A DNA stretch of 64,000 nt from Chloroflexota bacterium (GTDB lineage: Bacteria > Chloroflexota > Dormibacteria > Dormibacterales > Dormibacteraceae), in the NCBI GenBank assembly GCA_005883575.1, contig VBFH01000025.1:1-64000 (forward strand), in the 5' to 3' direction. Under the pieces are notes generated by a model. It was not told the origin of the DNA and did no database searches. It saw nothing but the letters and a program-made list of their open reading frames with translations. The position numbers and the translations under genes were made by a program. Below are positions 36,317 to 46,750 of this stretch, one piece after another; the first letter of the stretch is position 1; every line of letters starts with the position of its first letter.

Positions 36317-37093
36317 CTAGCTCTGTCGCAAGCTGAGCAAGCCGAACCCGGCGCCCTGCGGATCCATCACGATCGAGAAGCGCCCGCCCGGAAAGTCCTG
36401 CGGCGGCAGCATCTCCTGGCCGCCGAGGTCAATGGCCTTCTTGTGCGTCTTGTCGACGTCGTCGGCGCCGAAGTAGACCATCCAGTAGGACGGCACATCT
36501 TTCGGCACCATCGGGTTCATCTCCATGCCGCCGGCGATGCTCTGGCCGTCGTTCTTGAACTCCGTGTAGTCGCCCTGGCCCTCCCCCATCGGGCTGACCT
36601 TCTTGTCCCAGCCGAAGACCTTTGCGTAGAAAGGCTTGGCTTTCTCAAAGCCGCGGGAGTTGAGCTCGGCCCAGGAATACGCCCCCTGCTTCCCGGTCAC
36701 CTCGCTGCCGAACATCTTCTTCGGCTGCCAGACCGAGATGAAGGCCCCTGTCGGGTCCTGGAACACCGCCATCCGACCCTGGTCGAGGACGTCGAACGGA
36801 GGCGCGACCACCTTGCCACCTTCGGCCTCGACTTTCTTGGCCGTGGCGTCGGCGTCTCGCGTGCCGATGTAGACCATCCATGCTGAGGGCGCCTTGGGAT
36901 CCTGCGTCGGGCCGATGCCGGCGACGTCCTTGCCGCCCAGCTTCGCCAGCGCGTAACCACCGGCGTCGGGGCCGGCGATCTCGACCTTCCAGCCGAACAG
37001 CTTCGAGTAGTAATCGCTTGACGCCGCCGCATCCTTGCTCGACAGGTCGATCCACGCTGGTGCGTTGGCGACAAATGTCTTCGCGTCTGCCAT
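36317..37093 (-). CDS. VOC-superfamily (glyoxalase/bleomycin resistance-like) two-domain protein
   Basis: 258 residues made of two tandem VOC domains: PAWIDLSSKDAAASSDYYSKLFGW to GAFISVWQPKK, then YSWAELNSRGFEKAKPFYAKVFGW to GAGFGLLSL. This resembles the actinobacterial hydroxylase/glyoxalase-like proteins. ATG 37093 has AGGAGG eight bases upstream. Single-gene unit ended by the terminator at 36269, divergent from the FrnE-like selenoprotein. Substrate unknown. Confidence 0.88.
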   Translation of the reverse strand: MADAKTFVANAPAWIDLSSKDAAASSDYYSKLFGWKVEIAGPDAGGYALAKLGGKDVAGIGPTQDPKAPSAWMVYIGTRDADATAKKVEAEGGKVVAPPFDVLDQGRMAVFQDPTGAFISVWQPKKMFGSEVTGKQGAYSWAELNSRGFEKAKPFYAKVFGWDKKVSPMGEGQGDYTEFKNDGQSIAGGMEMNPMVPKDVPSYWMVYFGADDVDKTHKKAIDLGGQEMLPPQDFPGGRFSIVMDPQGAGFGLLSLRQS

Positions 37094-37224: not shown

Positions 37225-37842
37225 ATGGACGAGCTCGCGCCGATCGACCTCGTGATCTTCTCCGACTACGTCTGACCCTGGTGCTACATCGACTCGGTCA
37301 GAGTCGAACAGCTCGAGGCTGAAGGCCTCGTCCACGTCACGTGGCTGCCTTTCGAGTTGCATCCGGAGGCTCCGCCGGAAGGCATCCCACGCGAGGCGTA
37401 CTTCGGACGCGAGCGCTCTGAGCGCATCCACTCGCATCTGCAATCGGTGGCGGAATCGGTCGGCCTCAGGATGAAGCCACGCGACGTGATCATCAACTCG
37501 CGCCGCGCGCTTGGCGCTGCCGAGCTGGCGCGGGAGCACGGATTGTTCGACGAGATGCACCACGCGCTGTTCAGGGCGCATTGGGAGAGCACAGGACATC
37601 TGGAGGACGTCGACGATCTGGTCAGGATCGGGACCGGCATCGGTCTGGATGCGGTCGAGCTGCGAGACTCCATCGAGACAAATCGATATGACGGGGTCAT
37701 CGACGAGAACCGTCAGGCCGCGAGCTCGGTCGGCATCGACGCGATCCCCGCACACATCTTCGGCAGGCGCTACCTCGTCGTGGGCGCGCAACCGTATGAG
37801 GTCCTGAAGCAGGTCGTCGACCAGGTCTCCGCGGCGGAATGA
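37225..37842 (+). CDS. DsbA/FrnE-family thioredoxin-fold protein with in-frame TGA (probable selenoprotein)
   Basis: Reading through TGA 37273-37275 gives a 205-residue protein starting MDELAPIDLVIFSDYV-Sec-PWCY. FrnE/HCCA-isomerase-type DsbA relatives have SDYxCPWCY there, so the TGA stands exactly at the first catalytic Cys of CxxC. The rest is intact: ELHPEAPPEGIP, a helical insertion domain, REHGLFDEMHHALFRAHW, and the cis-Pro loop GIDAIPAHIFGRRYLVVGAQPYEV. A 7-bp hairpin with loop GGTCA follows at 37289. The same window holds a Sec formate dehydrogenase, so the host evidently decodes UGA. Likely a cytoplasmic oxidoreductase or isomerase. A recent nonsense mutation is the alternative. Confidence 0.82.
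37289..37307 (+). promoter_or_regulatory. Candidate bacterial SECIS hairpin in the FrnE-like gene
   Basis: TCGACTC (37289-37295), loop GGTCA, and the exact complement GAGTCGA (37301-37307). The stem begins 13 bases and the loop 20 bases after the TGA, inside the range used by SelB-dependent bacterial SECIS elements. The G/U-containing apical loop resembles GGUC-type loops of formate dehydrogenase SECIS elements. Confidence 0.7.
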
Positions 37843-38437: not shown

Positions 38438-39427
38438 TCAGGACCGAAAGAGGCGGACCAGCGACTCTTCGGTCCTGGAGAAGAGACGTCGGAGGCCATC
38501 TTCGCTCGCGCTGAGCTCCGCGCTGCGCCCTACTGCCCGCTCTTCCAGCAGGCCAGCCTCGCGCAGAACCTGCACGTGCGCGCTGACCGTGGGCTGTGAC
38601 AGCTTCAGCTGGCGCGCGATCTCCGTGACCGAGGCGGGCTGGCGCGCGAGGCGCAGGAGGATGGTCAGCCGCGTGGGATCGGCGAGCGCTTTGATGCTCG
38701 CCGAGACGTCCGCCGCGACCTTGCGGTAGGAAGGCTCTCCGTGCCGGATCCCCCGACCGACATGGACCGTGCCGTGGAGCTCGATCAAGTGGATCTTGCC
38801 GCCAAACCAGCACGGGTTGAGGATCAGCTTGCCTTCCCCTGCGGCGGCGTCGGCCATCTCGTCGAGCTCGGGCCGGCCGGGCCACAGCCGGGTGAGGCCG
38901 AGCAGGCTCTTGAAGGCGACCCCCTGCTCCTGCAGAGCGCGGCTCCAGCGCTGAGCCTCGGCGACGACGGCTGAGCGGCCTTCCCTCTGCCACTCCGGCT
39001 CGACCGCGCGCCAAACGGCGGACAGCAGCTCGGCGTAGCGCTTGCGCAGTCCGCTGTCCGCCCGCAGGCGCTCGAGCCGCTCGCGCACGACCTTTCTCTC
39101 CGCCGGCTTCTCGGAGCGCAGCGAGGGAATCTCCGAGCGAGCCTGAGAGGCCTGGTCGAGCTTGTCGAAGAATCGCCGCAGATCGAGGTCGAGCAGCGTG
39201 CCCGAGCGATGAGCCAGCACGACCAGCTCGGTCGAGTACTGGGTGAGGCCGTCGGTCCTGAGCTCCGACAGCTGCGGTCCGAAGCGCCGGCGGAGCGGAT
39301 CCAGGGGGGCGAACGCTCCCTCGTGCTCGTGACCCGATTGGACGAAGTGCAGGACCCACATCAGCTCCAGCACCGCCGAAGGCGCCACGTGGATGCCGGG
39401 GGATTGTTCTTCGACCAGGGTCGGCAT
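38438..39427 (-). CDS. ArsR-type winged-helix regulator with large N-terminal domain
   Basis: 329 residues. The C-terminal about 90 residues form an ArsR-type DNA-binding domain: SIKALADPTRLTILLRLARQ, VTEIARQLKLSQPTVSAHVQ and VLREAGLLEERAVGRSAEL. The N-terminal 220 residues (LMWVLHFVQSGHEHEGAF…) match the DUF5937-like regions often attached to such regulators in actinobacteria. No metal-binding cysteine box is seen. It is divergent from a tiny gene at 39504 and the shared gap has two palindromes. The gene it once regulated downstream appears deleted (remnants at 37882-38437). Confidence 0.85.
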   Translation of the reverse strand: MPTLVEEQSPGIHVAPSAVLELMWVLHFVQSGHEHEGAFAPLDPLRRRFGPQLSELRTDGLTQYSTELVVLAHRSGTLLDLDLRRFFDKLDQASQARSEIPSLRSEKPAERKVVRERLERLRADSGLRKRYAELLSAVWRAVEPEWQREGRSAVVAEAQRWSRALQEQGVAFKSLLGLTRLWPGRPELDEMADAAAGEGKLILNPCWFGGKIHLIELHGTVHVGRGIRHGEPSYRKVAADVSASIKALADPTRLTILLRLARQPASVTEIARQLKLSQPTVSAHVQVLREAGLLEERAVGRSAELSASEDGLRRLFSRTEESLVRLFRS

Positions 39428-42830: not shown

Positions 42831-43700
42831 CTAAAACCCCATGAGGTTGGTGGTGATCTTCGAATATCCCTGCTCGCGGGCGTAGAGGTCGAGCGGGATC
42901 GCGGCCATCTCGTCCACGATCGGCACGGCGCCGCGATCGGCCGCCAGGTCGACGCTGAGCAGGTAGCGGCGGCAGGAATCGCAAGCTTCGATCCTCATGT
43001 GCGGGAACACCGCGGCTTGCCGCGCCGCGACCGCGCCGCCGGGCAGGCCGCGCACGATGCTGCCGCGCTCGCCGGATGTGGTGCCGTGCTCGCTGAAGAC
43101 GTTGAGCTTCGCGCTCGCATCCTCACCGCAGCCGGCGCACGTCAATCGGGCGTAGCCCCACGTCGTGCCGCATCGCGCGCACAGCAGGTATCGGGCGCCG
43201 GTCGCGAGCTCGTCCGCCGCAGCCGCAAAGTAGCTCAGCTGCGGCAGTCCACCGCATGCGGGGCAGTGACGTGCGTCGCGCGGGCCGTCGCACTCGGCCT
43301 TGGCGCTCACGTCCAGCGCTTCGAGCACAGGCCCCAGGGACGCACGCGCGAGGTAGCGATCGACCGCCGGCTGCCCTTCGCCTTGCATCCAGCGCCGGAC
43401 GATGTCGTGCCCCTCCTGCGACTCGATGCGCTGGATCACCTCCGCGCGCAGGCGGTCGGGGCCGACAGCAACAGTGACGTCGACGACGCTCGGGAGCACG
43501 AGCTCCGCGACATAGGCCGCGACGCTCCGGGGCGGCGGCGCGGACACGGTGGCGTCAAGAAACGCTCTCTCCTGGACCGCGAGAAGCGCGCCGTAGAAAT
43601 CGAGCAGCTGGCGGGCGAAGCCCCGCCGGGCGCGCAGCTCAGCCACGCGACGCCGGCGCTCCGTCCACAGCTCGCTGCCGGCGACCGCGACCGCCATCAC
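42831..43700 (-). CDS. fdhE: FdhE-like formate dehydrogenase accessory protein
   Basis: About 289 residues. The second half carries four CxxC pairs of rubredoxin-like type: CPACGG, CARCGTTWGYARL, CAGCGED and CDSCRRYL, as in FdhE, which assists maturation of respiratory formate dehydrogenases. GTG 43700 overlaps the catalytic-subunit stop (GTGA); ATG 43697 follows immediately. Placement between the alpha and beta subunit genes is unusual compared with enterobacteria, where fdhE follows the structural genes. Confidence 0.88.
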   Translation of the reverse strand: MMAVAVAGSELWTERRRRVAELRARRGFARQLLDFYGALLAVQERAFLDATVSAPPPRSVAAYVAELVLPSVVDVTVAVGPDRLRAEVIQRIESQEGHDIVRRWMQGEGQPAVDRYLARASLGPVLEALDVSAKAECDGPRDARHCPACGGLPQLSYFAAAADELATGARYLLCARCGTTWGYARLTCAGCGEDASAKLNVFSEHGTTSGERGSIVRGLPGGAVAARQAAVFPHMRIEACDSCRRYLLSVDLAADRGAVPIVDEMAAIPLDLYAREQGYSKITTNLMGF

Positions 43701-46700
43701 ATCTTCTCCAGGTTGACGAGGAAGGCCTTGAACTCAGGCGTCCGCGCGTTCGCGTCGCCGACGAACGGGGTGAGCGCGTTCGCCAGCCAGTAGCGGCCGC
43801 GGCTTGAGTCGCTGTCCGCCGACAGGCCGACGTAGCCCCAGTGGATCGGGATCCCGATCTGATAAACCTTCTGGCCCGCGACGGTCATCGCGCCGAGGCG
43901 CTTGGTGACGAGAGCCAGGACCTCGACCTTGCCTCGCTTTGAGGAGACGCGAACCTGGTCTCCGCTCTTGATCCCCTTTTCGCTTGCCAGCTCGTAAGGG
44001 ATCTCGACGAAGGGCTTTGGCTGCAGCTGCACCAGGTGCGGCACGTGCTGGGTGACGTAGTGCTCGTGCTCGGTCAGCCGGTAGCTCGTCGCGATGTACG
44101 GGAAATCGGTCGCGGTGCCGAAACGGTCGGGCCGGCCGGCTGCTTTGTCGTAGAGAAACACGACCGGCGACGCCGAGTTGCCGGGGTGCAGCGGGTTGGC
44201 CACCGGCGACTCCACAGGTTCGTAGTGCTCGGGGAAAGGCCCGTCGAGCATGCTGTTGCTGAAGAGGCGGCCCACGCCCTCGCCGTTCATGATGAAAGGC
44301 AGCCAGGCGGCCGGGTCGTGCGGGTTCATCGTCGGCGGATAGTCAGGGACGTCGCCGACCCATTTGCTTCCGTTCCATGTGATGCCTGGCCGTGTTGGAT
44401 CCCACGCCTTGCCGTCCAGGTCCGCCGAGGCGCGGTTGTACATCACGCGTCGGTTCAGCGGCCAGCTCCACGACCAGTTGGGGTAGAAGCCCATGCCGGT
44501 CGGGTCGTTCGTCTTCGTATCCTGCACTCCCTGGCGGCGCTTCATCAGGTTGCCCGAGTCGAGATAGCTGCCGGTGTAGATCCAGTCGCCCGTGGTCGTG
44601 GTGCCGTCGTCCCTGAGAAGGGCGAAAGACGTCATCTGCTTGCCCGTGGTGAGGTCTTTGCCGTTGATCTCCTTGGCGATCTCGTCGAGCTCCGGCTTGA
44701 GCGGGTCTTTGTAGTCGACGGTCAGGTTCAGGATCGGGTCGGGGAACTTTCCGCCCTGCGACTGGTACAGCTTCTTCACCCGCTGGAAGATGTCGGCCAG
44801 GATCCAGTGATCGTGTCGCGCCTGGCCCTGCGGCGGGAGAACCTGGTCTTTCCACTGCGACCAGCGCCCGCTGTTCACGAACGAACCGTCTTTCTCGATC
44901 CAGTGCGTCGTCGGGACCATGAAGACCTCGGTCTTGACCTGGCTCGCATCCACGCCGGGCGCGTGCCAGAACTCGGAGCTGGTCGTCGGCAGCGCGTCCA
45001 TGACGACGAGCCACTTGAGATTGCCGAGCGCCTGGCGTACCTGGTTGCTGTCCGGGCCGATGCTCGCCGCGGTCATGCCAGACAGGATCAGGCCCTCCAT
45101 CTTGCCCTTCAGTGCCTGGTCGTAGATCGTCATCCACGACGCGTTGCCTGCGGGCTTGGGCACGAAGCTGAACGCGAACTCGTTTTCCTTCTTCGCGGCG
45201 TCGCCGAACCACGCCTTGAGGGTGCTGACCATGAACTTGCTGTAGTTGGTGCCGAAAAAGTTCCACGAGTTCTTGTCCGACTTCTTCGGCGCGCTCCCCG
45301 CGACGTAGTCGGCGATCGTCTTCTGTCCAGGCGCCGGGATCTTCAGGTAGCCGGGCAGGATCTCCCACGAGATCGCGTGATCGGTGTTGCCCTGGATGTT
45401 GGCGTGGCCTCGCTCCGCGTTCATACCCCCACCCGGGCGGCCCATGTTGCCCAGCAGCAGCTGCAGCACGGCGCCGGAGCGAATCAGCTGTCCGCCGGTC
45501 GTGTGATGGGTCAATCCGACGGCGTAAACGATGGTCATCACCTTGTCGGGCTTGCCCATCTGGCCGACCAGATCGGCGACCTTCATGAAGTCGGCCACCG
45601 GGATCCCGGTGATGCTCGAAACCATGTCGGGCGTGTAGCGCGAGTAATGCGTCTTCATCAGCTGAAAGACGGAGCGGGGATTCTGCAGAGTCTTGTCTCG
45701 CATCGCGAAGCCCGTGGAATCTGTCTCGTAGCTCCAGCTCGCAATGTCATAGGTCCGCTTGGTCGCGTCGTATCCGGAGAACAGCCCGTCCTTGAAGGAG
45801 AAACCTTCCTTGACGATGAACGACGCATTCGTGTAGTTGCGCACGTACTCGTCGTGGAAGAGGCTGTTCTGGAGCACGTGGTTGATGAGGCCGCCGAAGT
45901 AGGCGACGTCGCTGCCCGTCCGGATGCGCAGGTACATGTCGGCGACCGCGGACGTGCGGGTGAAGCGCGGGTCGGCGTGGATCATCTTGGCGCCGCGGTC
46001 GAGCTTGGCCCGCATGAACCACTGGAACCCCACCGGGTGCGCCTCCGCCGGGTTGGCGCCGTTGATCAGGATGAGGTCAGAGTTCTTGATGTCCCGCCAG
46101 TGGTTGGTCATCGCTCCCCTTCCGAACGTGGCGGCCAAACTGACCACCGTGGGGCCGTGTCAAACCCTGGCCTGCTGCTCGAGGTGTACCAGTCCCAGGC
46201 CCCGCATCAGCTTGGTGGCGAAGTAGCCCTCCTCGGAGCTGAACGCGGCGCCTCCCGCGAAGGCGATGCCTTCGGTGCGGTTGACAGTGTTGCCGTTGCC
46301 ATCCGTCGCGACGAAAGTCGCGTCCCGTGACGATTTGATGTTCTGCGCGATCTTGTCGAGCATCTGGTCCCAGGAGATCTTCTGCCAGCCTGTGGCGCCG
46401 GCCGGCCGGTAGAGCGGAGACTCGATGCGCCTGGGTGAGACGGCGAGCTGCATCGCGGTGGCGCCCTTCGGGCACAGGCGCCCTTCGTTGACCGGGCTGT
46501 CGGGATCGCCCTCGATCTGCAGGAGCTCCCAGTTGCCATCGCTCTTCAGGCGCGTGTACGCGACGAGCGAGCAGCCGACCGCGCAGTACGGACAGATGGA
46601 GTGCAGCTCCCTGGCGCCGGCGATGCGCAGGCTCTGCTTGACCTTCGTGGATTCGGCCACCGCGACGTCGAAGCCTAGACCCGACGCCGCAAGTGCGCCG

Positions 46701-46750
46701 GCTCCGGCAACACCCGTCTTGAGAAAGGTCCGACGTGTGACAGTCGGCAA
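43697..46750 (-). CDS. fdoG/fdnG-like: Selenocysteine-containing formate dehydrogenase, catalytic (alpha) subunit
   Basis: One 1017-residue gene if TGA 46162-46160 is read as selenocysteine at codon 197. The context LEQQARV-Sec-HGPTVV…FGRGAMTNHW is the signature of FdnG/FdoG active sites. The N-terminus has a twin-arginine signal (TRRTFLKTG…), then CPYCAVGC…CPKG for a [4Fe-4S] cluster. Downstream are molybdopterin domains (LILINGANPAEAHPVGF, MRAKLDRGAKMIHADPRFTR, GGGMNAERGHANIQG) and the C-terminal HYVTQHVPHLVQLQPKPFVE. Exported folded by Tat, it oxidises formate outside the membrane. Sec machinery genes are not in this window. Confidence 0.95.
46130..46148 (-). promoter_or_regulatory. SECIS hairpin of the formate dehydrogenase gene
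   Basis: On the minus strand GGTGGTC (46148-46142), loop AGTTT, GGCCGCC (46136-46130) pair over seven positions including two G-U pairs. The stem begins 11 bases and the loop 18 bases after the TGA, matching the position expected for SelB recognition. Confidence 0.72.

Follow-up and report, generated by a model that had tools for sequence, protein, structure and literature searches.

Selenoproteins of the DsbA-like type, named as known in the sequence-only reading of the locus described here, have been in the literature since 2005 (PMC1088965, PMC2398784, PMC9312934, PMC13188914). The first report comprised nine Sargasso sequences of COG2761 with a UXXC motif (PMC1088965). The type was extended in 2006 to Anaeromyxobacter, Desulfovibrio desulfuricans and Desulfotomaculum reducens (PMC1794560), the DsbA 1 group of 2008 held 63 sequences (PMC2398784), DsbA-like selenoproteins of 41 organisms followed in 2016 (PMC5029168), and reviews of 2022 and 2026 include them (PMC9312934, PMC13188914).

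Two proteins of known structure and one further selenoprotein family are the nearest points of comparison. FrnE of Deinococcus radiodurans (DR_0659; PDB 5cnw, 5co3, 5cp1, 5xwh) has, besides its CPWC, a C-terminal CX4C proposed to act in regeneration, a motif present in many FrnE proteins and absent from some (PMC8945050). SCO1869 of Streptomyces coelicolor (PDB 3gl5) has a DsbA-family fold and is a Cys version. The NF041057 Rcas_1661 family thioredoxin-like (seleno)lipoprotein, which includes selenoproteins, is the 'DsbG-like' entry of PMC13188914. The locus compared with them lies in a window of 64,000 nucleotides, the whole stretch of DNA analysed here, from a dormibacterial genome (G000, 3.6 Mb, 95.5% complete) which, like the other dormibacterial genomes used, is a MAG.

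The gene, its active site and its relatives

The FrnE-like gene occupies positions 37225-37842 of the forward strand. With TGA read as a residue it runs from an ATG through 205 codons to a TGA stop (37840-37842), and the TGA of codon 17 (37273-37275, forward strand), the predicted selenocysteine, is the single internal stop. This codon is aligned with the first Cys of the CPWC of homologues, and the active-site motif reads SDYVUPWCY. Re-reading bore out the claim, made from the sequence alone, that the TGA replaces the first active-site cysteine in a frame which is intact on both sides; the cis-Pro region AIPAHIFGRRY, said to be preserved, is also present (DAIPAHIFGRRY). Pro175 (AIPAHIF; codon 37747-37749, forward strand) is invariant in the alignment and by homology occupies the cis-Pro position of the thioredoxin fold. 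In the read-through translation the TGC at 37282-37284 (forward strand) encodes Cys20, the putative resolving residue of UPWC and the sole cysteine of the protein, so that U17 and C20 are the only redox pair. Sec17 is preceded by 16 residues only, in which visual inspection finds no hydrophobic leader, and the protein is probably cytosolic.

With U replaced by Cys the protein matches Pfam DSBA (PF01323) at 2.4e-29. Among PDB sequences FrnE of D. radiodurans matches best (1.4e-18), its CPWC aligned with UPWC, and SCO1869 comes next. An AlphaFold2 model built from the alignment has a mean pLDDT of 89.3; because the stop codon was read as a residue, it has one extra C-terminal Cys that is an artefact. 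The folds nearest to the model are those of the FrnE structures 5cp1 and 5co3, with a TM-score by query length of 0.87, followed by SCO1869 with 0.86; kappa GST, HCCA isomerase and DsbM are weaker matches. Like other members of the FrnE-like DsbA family, the protein has a [C/U]P[WF]C where its first helix begins, and a cis-Pro. The initial description as a FrnE/DsbA-like oxidoreductase is backed by domain, sequence matches and predicted fold alike, and we hold with very high confidence that the protein has a FrnE-like fold with a UxxC redox pair.

With D. radiodurans FrnE the protein shares the place of the CPWC motif, the cis-Pro and, probably, the cytoplasmic location predicted for FrnE (PMC8945050), but it has Sec where the Deinococcus protein has Cys, and it is without the C-terminal CX4C. 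SCO1869, the second-best group by both sequence and fold, likewise differs in having Cys. The likeness to NF041057 is that of two UxxC proteins of thioredoxin fold; the match reaches 43.2 bits against a cut-off of 190 and covers the C-terminal half only, and that family is described as a lipoprotein. No NCBIfam model reaches its cut-off on the dormibacterial FrnE-like group. The published 'DsbA-like protein' selenoproteins (COG2761, PMC1088965; 'DsbA 1', PMC2398784; 'form 1', PMC13188914), to which the protein is likened by description, motif and domain, have in common with it PF01323, a UxxC with the Sec N-terminal and widespread Cys homologues; they came first from marine metagenomes and later from other bacteria, whereas the present one is from Dormibacterota.

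TGA and cysteine codons among homologues

The sequence-only reading had proposed a search for Cys homologues and for TGA-containing orthologues, and both exist. The close homologues are from Candidatus Dormibacterota and from soil MAGs named 'Chloroflexi bacterium'. An orthologue with an internal TGA is found in 30 of the 42 genomes of the GTDB family (50-100% identity), and all 29 GTDB-family orthologues among the matches listed have the TGA at the same codon. A second collection, which consists largely of the same assemblies, gives 40 of 41 dormibacterial loci (L047-L087) with intact frame and TGA at this codon; all intact homologues from Dormibacteria share it, even at identities as low as about 40%. 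The 41st locus (L067, the same as L041) keeps the TGA and has one C missing directly after it, which shifts the frame and is an assembly error or a recent lesion.

Farther away the codon is usually one for cysteine. In 38 of the 39 distant loci (L088-L126), from Anaerolineae, Myxococcota, Rhodospirillales, Rubrobacter, Nitrospirota, Poribacteria and others, TGC or TGT is found at the same place; the sole TGA among them is that of Terrihalobacillus insolitus (Bacillota; L100:6001-6558), in the motif SDFLUPFCF. A phylum-wide search of Chloroflexota gave a match in 115 of 400 genomes. Sixty loci were fetched from the family, class and phylum matches, hand-picked so that the counts are not prevalences, and their first xPxC position is TGA in 43, Cys in 16 and not scorable in one; the internal TGA is thus at the catalytic codon each time. 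One Chloroflexota genome (G376) encodes two FrnE-like paralogues (L190 and L194), of which one has Sec (UPWC) and the other Cys (CPWC). Plasmid matches are distant, at about 30% identity.

These data bear on the simplest objection, namely that the TGA is a real stop in a gene which has decayed or been mis-sequenced, with TGC read as TGA. The window comes from a single MAG contig and the one-base deletion of L067 falls directly past the TGA, both of which would fit such an explanation. The same TGA with an intact frame is, however, shared by dozens of genomes which several projects assembled separately, at 50-82% protein identity, and errors are not expected to fall on one codon across a phylum. 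Pseudogene and sequencing error were ruled out on the ground that the TGA is kept in dozens of genomes, and the probability left to them is negligible.

The hairpin after the TGA and the selenium machinery

A SECIS-like hairpin is located at 37289-37307 of the forward strand, with the stem TCGACTC (37289-37295), the loop GGTCA (37296-37300) and the stem GAGTCGA (37301-37307). The perfect 7-bp hairpin starting 13 bases past the TGA that had been noticed in the sequence is therefore real, but folding of the region, which had been proposed as a check, was less telling: as a single sequence the 40-nt hairpin is unremarkable (z -1.36). Single-sequence folding was dropped as uninformative proof of a SECIS element and a comparative pairing test was used instead, so that the significance of the hairpin comes from the comparison across homologues.

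The test was run on ungapped sequences following the TGA, for the seven pairs formed by positions 14-20 and 26-32 after it. Of 81 unique Sec (TGA) sequences 48 form all seven pairs, versus one of 52 Cys sequences, and 0.86 of the cells (86%) are paired at the true register versus 0.28-0.50 (28-50%) for slid registers. Compensatory change on both sides accounts for 61 cells, mostly at the pairs 19/27 (T-A, C-G, A-T, G-C) and 20/26 (C-G, A-T). When the 3' arm was permuted among sequences the observed pairing was reached in 0 of 1000 permutations, also with Dormibacteria left out. Related sequences are not independent samples and kinship inflates these pairing counts, but the Cys homologues, which are also related among themselves, do not have the pattern. 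Within Dormibacteria the hairpin varies from T-A to T-G only, and the compensatory changes fall between lineages.

The loops are mostly GGTCN or GGGTG, with a G in the apical loop, and bacterial SECIS elements have a G in this place. Synonymous-codon conservation within Dormibacteria peaks at codons 18-27, the windows 18-24 and 21-27 being the top of 168. On this comparative evidence the hairpin is under selection. The protein segment IDSV[RG]V is nearly fixed in Dormibacteria and variable in Cys homologues (VGQG, LGDN, LEEP), as would be expected if the RNA constrained the protein. In one lineage (f19: L203, L205, L206, L209, L212, L215) the TGA versions have a hairpin which is weaker or in another register, around CTCCAG-TTTGGAG, and this suggests lineage-specific SECIS forms. 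None of the Rfam SECIS models matches the hairpin of the gene described here; their sole match is at the Sec site of the formate dehydrogenase gene of the window (46107-46165, reverse strand; SECIS_3, 52 bits), below the gathering score of 63.

Conventional ORF calling returned just a 161-aa ORF which starts at TTG 37357 and leaves out the active site, in keeping with the earlier warning that a conventional annotation would truncate the gene. This call is the argument for termination at codon 17 followed by re-initiation downstream, for instance at that TTG, which would yield a truncated DsbA-like protein without active site. Against it, conservation is among the highest in the N-terminal strand and in the P[WF]CY-IDSV segment past the TGA, homologues have either this TGA or a Cys codon for the catalytic residue, and the hairpin is maintained by compensatory change; re-initiation is thus extremely unlikely.

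The genome has all four of the genes selA, selB, selC and selD for which the first reading had asked. On contig C39 selA (510 bits) directly precedes selB (70587-72410; 345 bits, over cut-off). The tRNA-Sec is on contig C42, with 71.4 bits versus a gathering score of 47, and is called by ARAGORN as tRNA-SeC with anticodon tca (UCA). The selD gene (L157; contig C86, 204596-205507, reverse strand) is over cut-off and has an in-frame TGA of its own in the catalytic loop (GAGUACK), so that the selenophosphate synthetase, by its sequence, is itself a selenoprotein. SelB is over cut-off in 34 of the 42 genomes of the family, and most of the remaining eight are incomplete assemblies. The second selenoprotein gene announced for the vicinity was found at 43697-46750 (reverse strand): it encodes formate dehydrogenase-N alpha, its TGA (46162-46160) stands in a sequence context as expected for Sec, QARV-U-HGP, and when read through it matches TIGR01553 over cut-off. 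Besides the FrnE-like protein, a single protein with a DSBA domain was found in the genome (L161; G000:C104:101299-101751, reverse strand); it has CPFV with one active-site Cys, and this assembly consequently has no Cys version of the FrnE-like gene.

A TGA reassigned genome-wide, or suppressed here to Cys or Trp and not to Sec, would also give a full-length protein, and as the residue aligns with Cys it is conceivable that UGA is now and then read as Cys when selenium is short. TGA is, however, also the stop of this very gene, the genome has a dedicated tRNA-Sec with SelA, SelB and a Sec-containing SelD, and the hairpin is specific to the TGA versions. A change of genetic code was ruled out by the gene's own stop together with the recoding machinery, and reassignment or suppression as a whole is very improbable. 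TGA at unrelated positions in orthologues, multiple frameshifts and an absence of selB or selC were looked for as signs against a selenoprotein, and none of them was found. The candidate proposed at the outset is supported by the pairing of Sec with Cys among homologues, by the hairpin with its compensatory changes and by selA, selB, selC and selD, and from these comparisons it is close to certain that the gene is a genuine selenoprotein gene whose UGA at codon 17 would be read as selenocysteine.

Proposed function and exchange of Sec and Cys in the family

The best explanation as a whole, to which we give a probability of roughly 0.93, is a FrnE-like Sec protein made by hairpin- and SelB-directed recoding and acting by a disulfide-handling mechanism. 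On the comparative data the hairpin 13 bases downstream, together with SelB and tRNA-Sec, would direct the reading of UGA-17 as selenocysteine. In a thioredoxin fold with helical insert Sec17 would be the N-terminal residue of the first helix, where a selenolate of low pKa could attack a substrate disulfide; the mixed selenenylsulfide would be resolved by Cys20, and the Se-S bond re-reduced by a thioredoxin-like or low-molecular-weight thiol. An external thiol is proposed for this last step because the protein has no other Cys and is without the C-terminal CX4C of D. radiodurans FrnE. We infer the chemistry of Sec17 and Cys20 from the FrnE/DsbA fold and from what is established for selenoenzymes. 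A role in protein-disulfide reduction or isomerisation, with Sec17 as nucleophile, is by this analogy favoured, if with modest confidence, and its likely setting would be disulfide or oxidative stress, because the D. radiodurans FrnE mutant is sensitive to cadmium and diamide (PMC8945050).

The genomic surroundings add little. The nearest upstream gene encodes a divergent VOC/glyoxalase protein (36317-37093, reverse strand), and downstream on the opposite strand there is an ArsR-like regulator (38438-39427, reverse strand). Within the genus the divergent VOC gene and a pfkB/Indigoidine_A-like (pseudouridine-glycosidase-like) pair are found repeatedly, which fits ordinary synteny. No neighbour is kept across Dormibacteria in the 41 loci compared, there is no conserved operon among them, and no consensus promoter or terminator was found around the gene. 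The context yields no substrate, since the VOC and ArsR-like neighbours are not kept beyond closer relatives. An alternative function for the Sec oxidoreductase would be glutathione- or small-molecule-linked chemistry of the GST-kappa or HCCA-isomerase kind, as in detoxification, instead of general disulfide reduction. The fold neighbours which come after FrnE, GST kappa, HCCA isomerase and the disulfide reductase DsbM, would agree with this, as would the VOC/glyoxalase-family gene next door. The UPWC is, however, a dithiol-like motif typical of FrnE, the FrnE structures are clearly the best matches, and the VOC gene is on the opposite strand and was seen in only 15 of the 41 dormibacterial loci, some of which are cut short. 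We consider such a role unlikely, and disulfide handling the preferred one.

A quick maximum-likelihood tree was made from 116 proteins, the Sec rows having their Sec residue blanked. In it the Sec proteins of Dormibacteria fall into a single starred clade of 18 rows, all of them Sec. The tree has 17 changes, without direction, between Sec and Cys, of which starred branches force at least nine, versus a mean of 38.7 on shuffling; parts of it are uncertain from long branches. Two classical FrnE proteins with UPWC, from the genomes G034 and G038, are placed among classical Cys FrnE proteins and apart from the group of the window. These two loci (L232, G038:C36; L233, G034:C132) belong to one dormibacterial genus, read EIWSDIVUPWCYIGKRRFE...GITGVPFFV with the TGA at the first active-site Cys, and have no stable hairpin at the usual place. 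It is reasonably probable that the dormibacterial FrnE-like proteins form an orthologous group of their own, unmodelled and with Sec fixed, and that their family has undergone at least nine switches between Sec and Cys in and around Chloroflexota; among these would be a separate change to Sec in the classical FrnE paralogue of one dormibacterial genus.

COG2761 is the FrnE COG; FrnE-type (COG2761) UxxC selenoproteins are already described, and the kind itself is not new. Literature searches for FrnE or Dormibacter with selenoprotein returned nothing relevant, with no report from Dormibacterota and no description of this FrnE-like group in Chloroflexi, and the deep-Sep paper mentions neither Chloroflexi nor disulfide nor thioredoxin. 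As far as could be found, what is new is the dormibacterial clade with fixed Sec, the exchange of Sec and Cys at least nine times in the family as a whole and the want of an NCBIfam model.

A poorly studied soil group thus gains a clearly supported selenoprotein lineage, and the locus is an example of how standard ORF calling misses the active-site half of such genes, the default ORF beginning past the active site. With Sec and Cys repeatedly exchanged at one catalytic position, close relatives provide matched pairs in which to ask what selenium brings to an enzyme and, if the switches proposed above are true, the family would be a natural experiment on why Sec replaces Cys.
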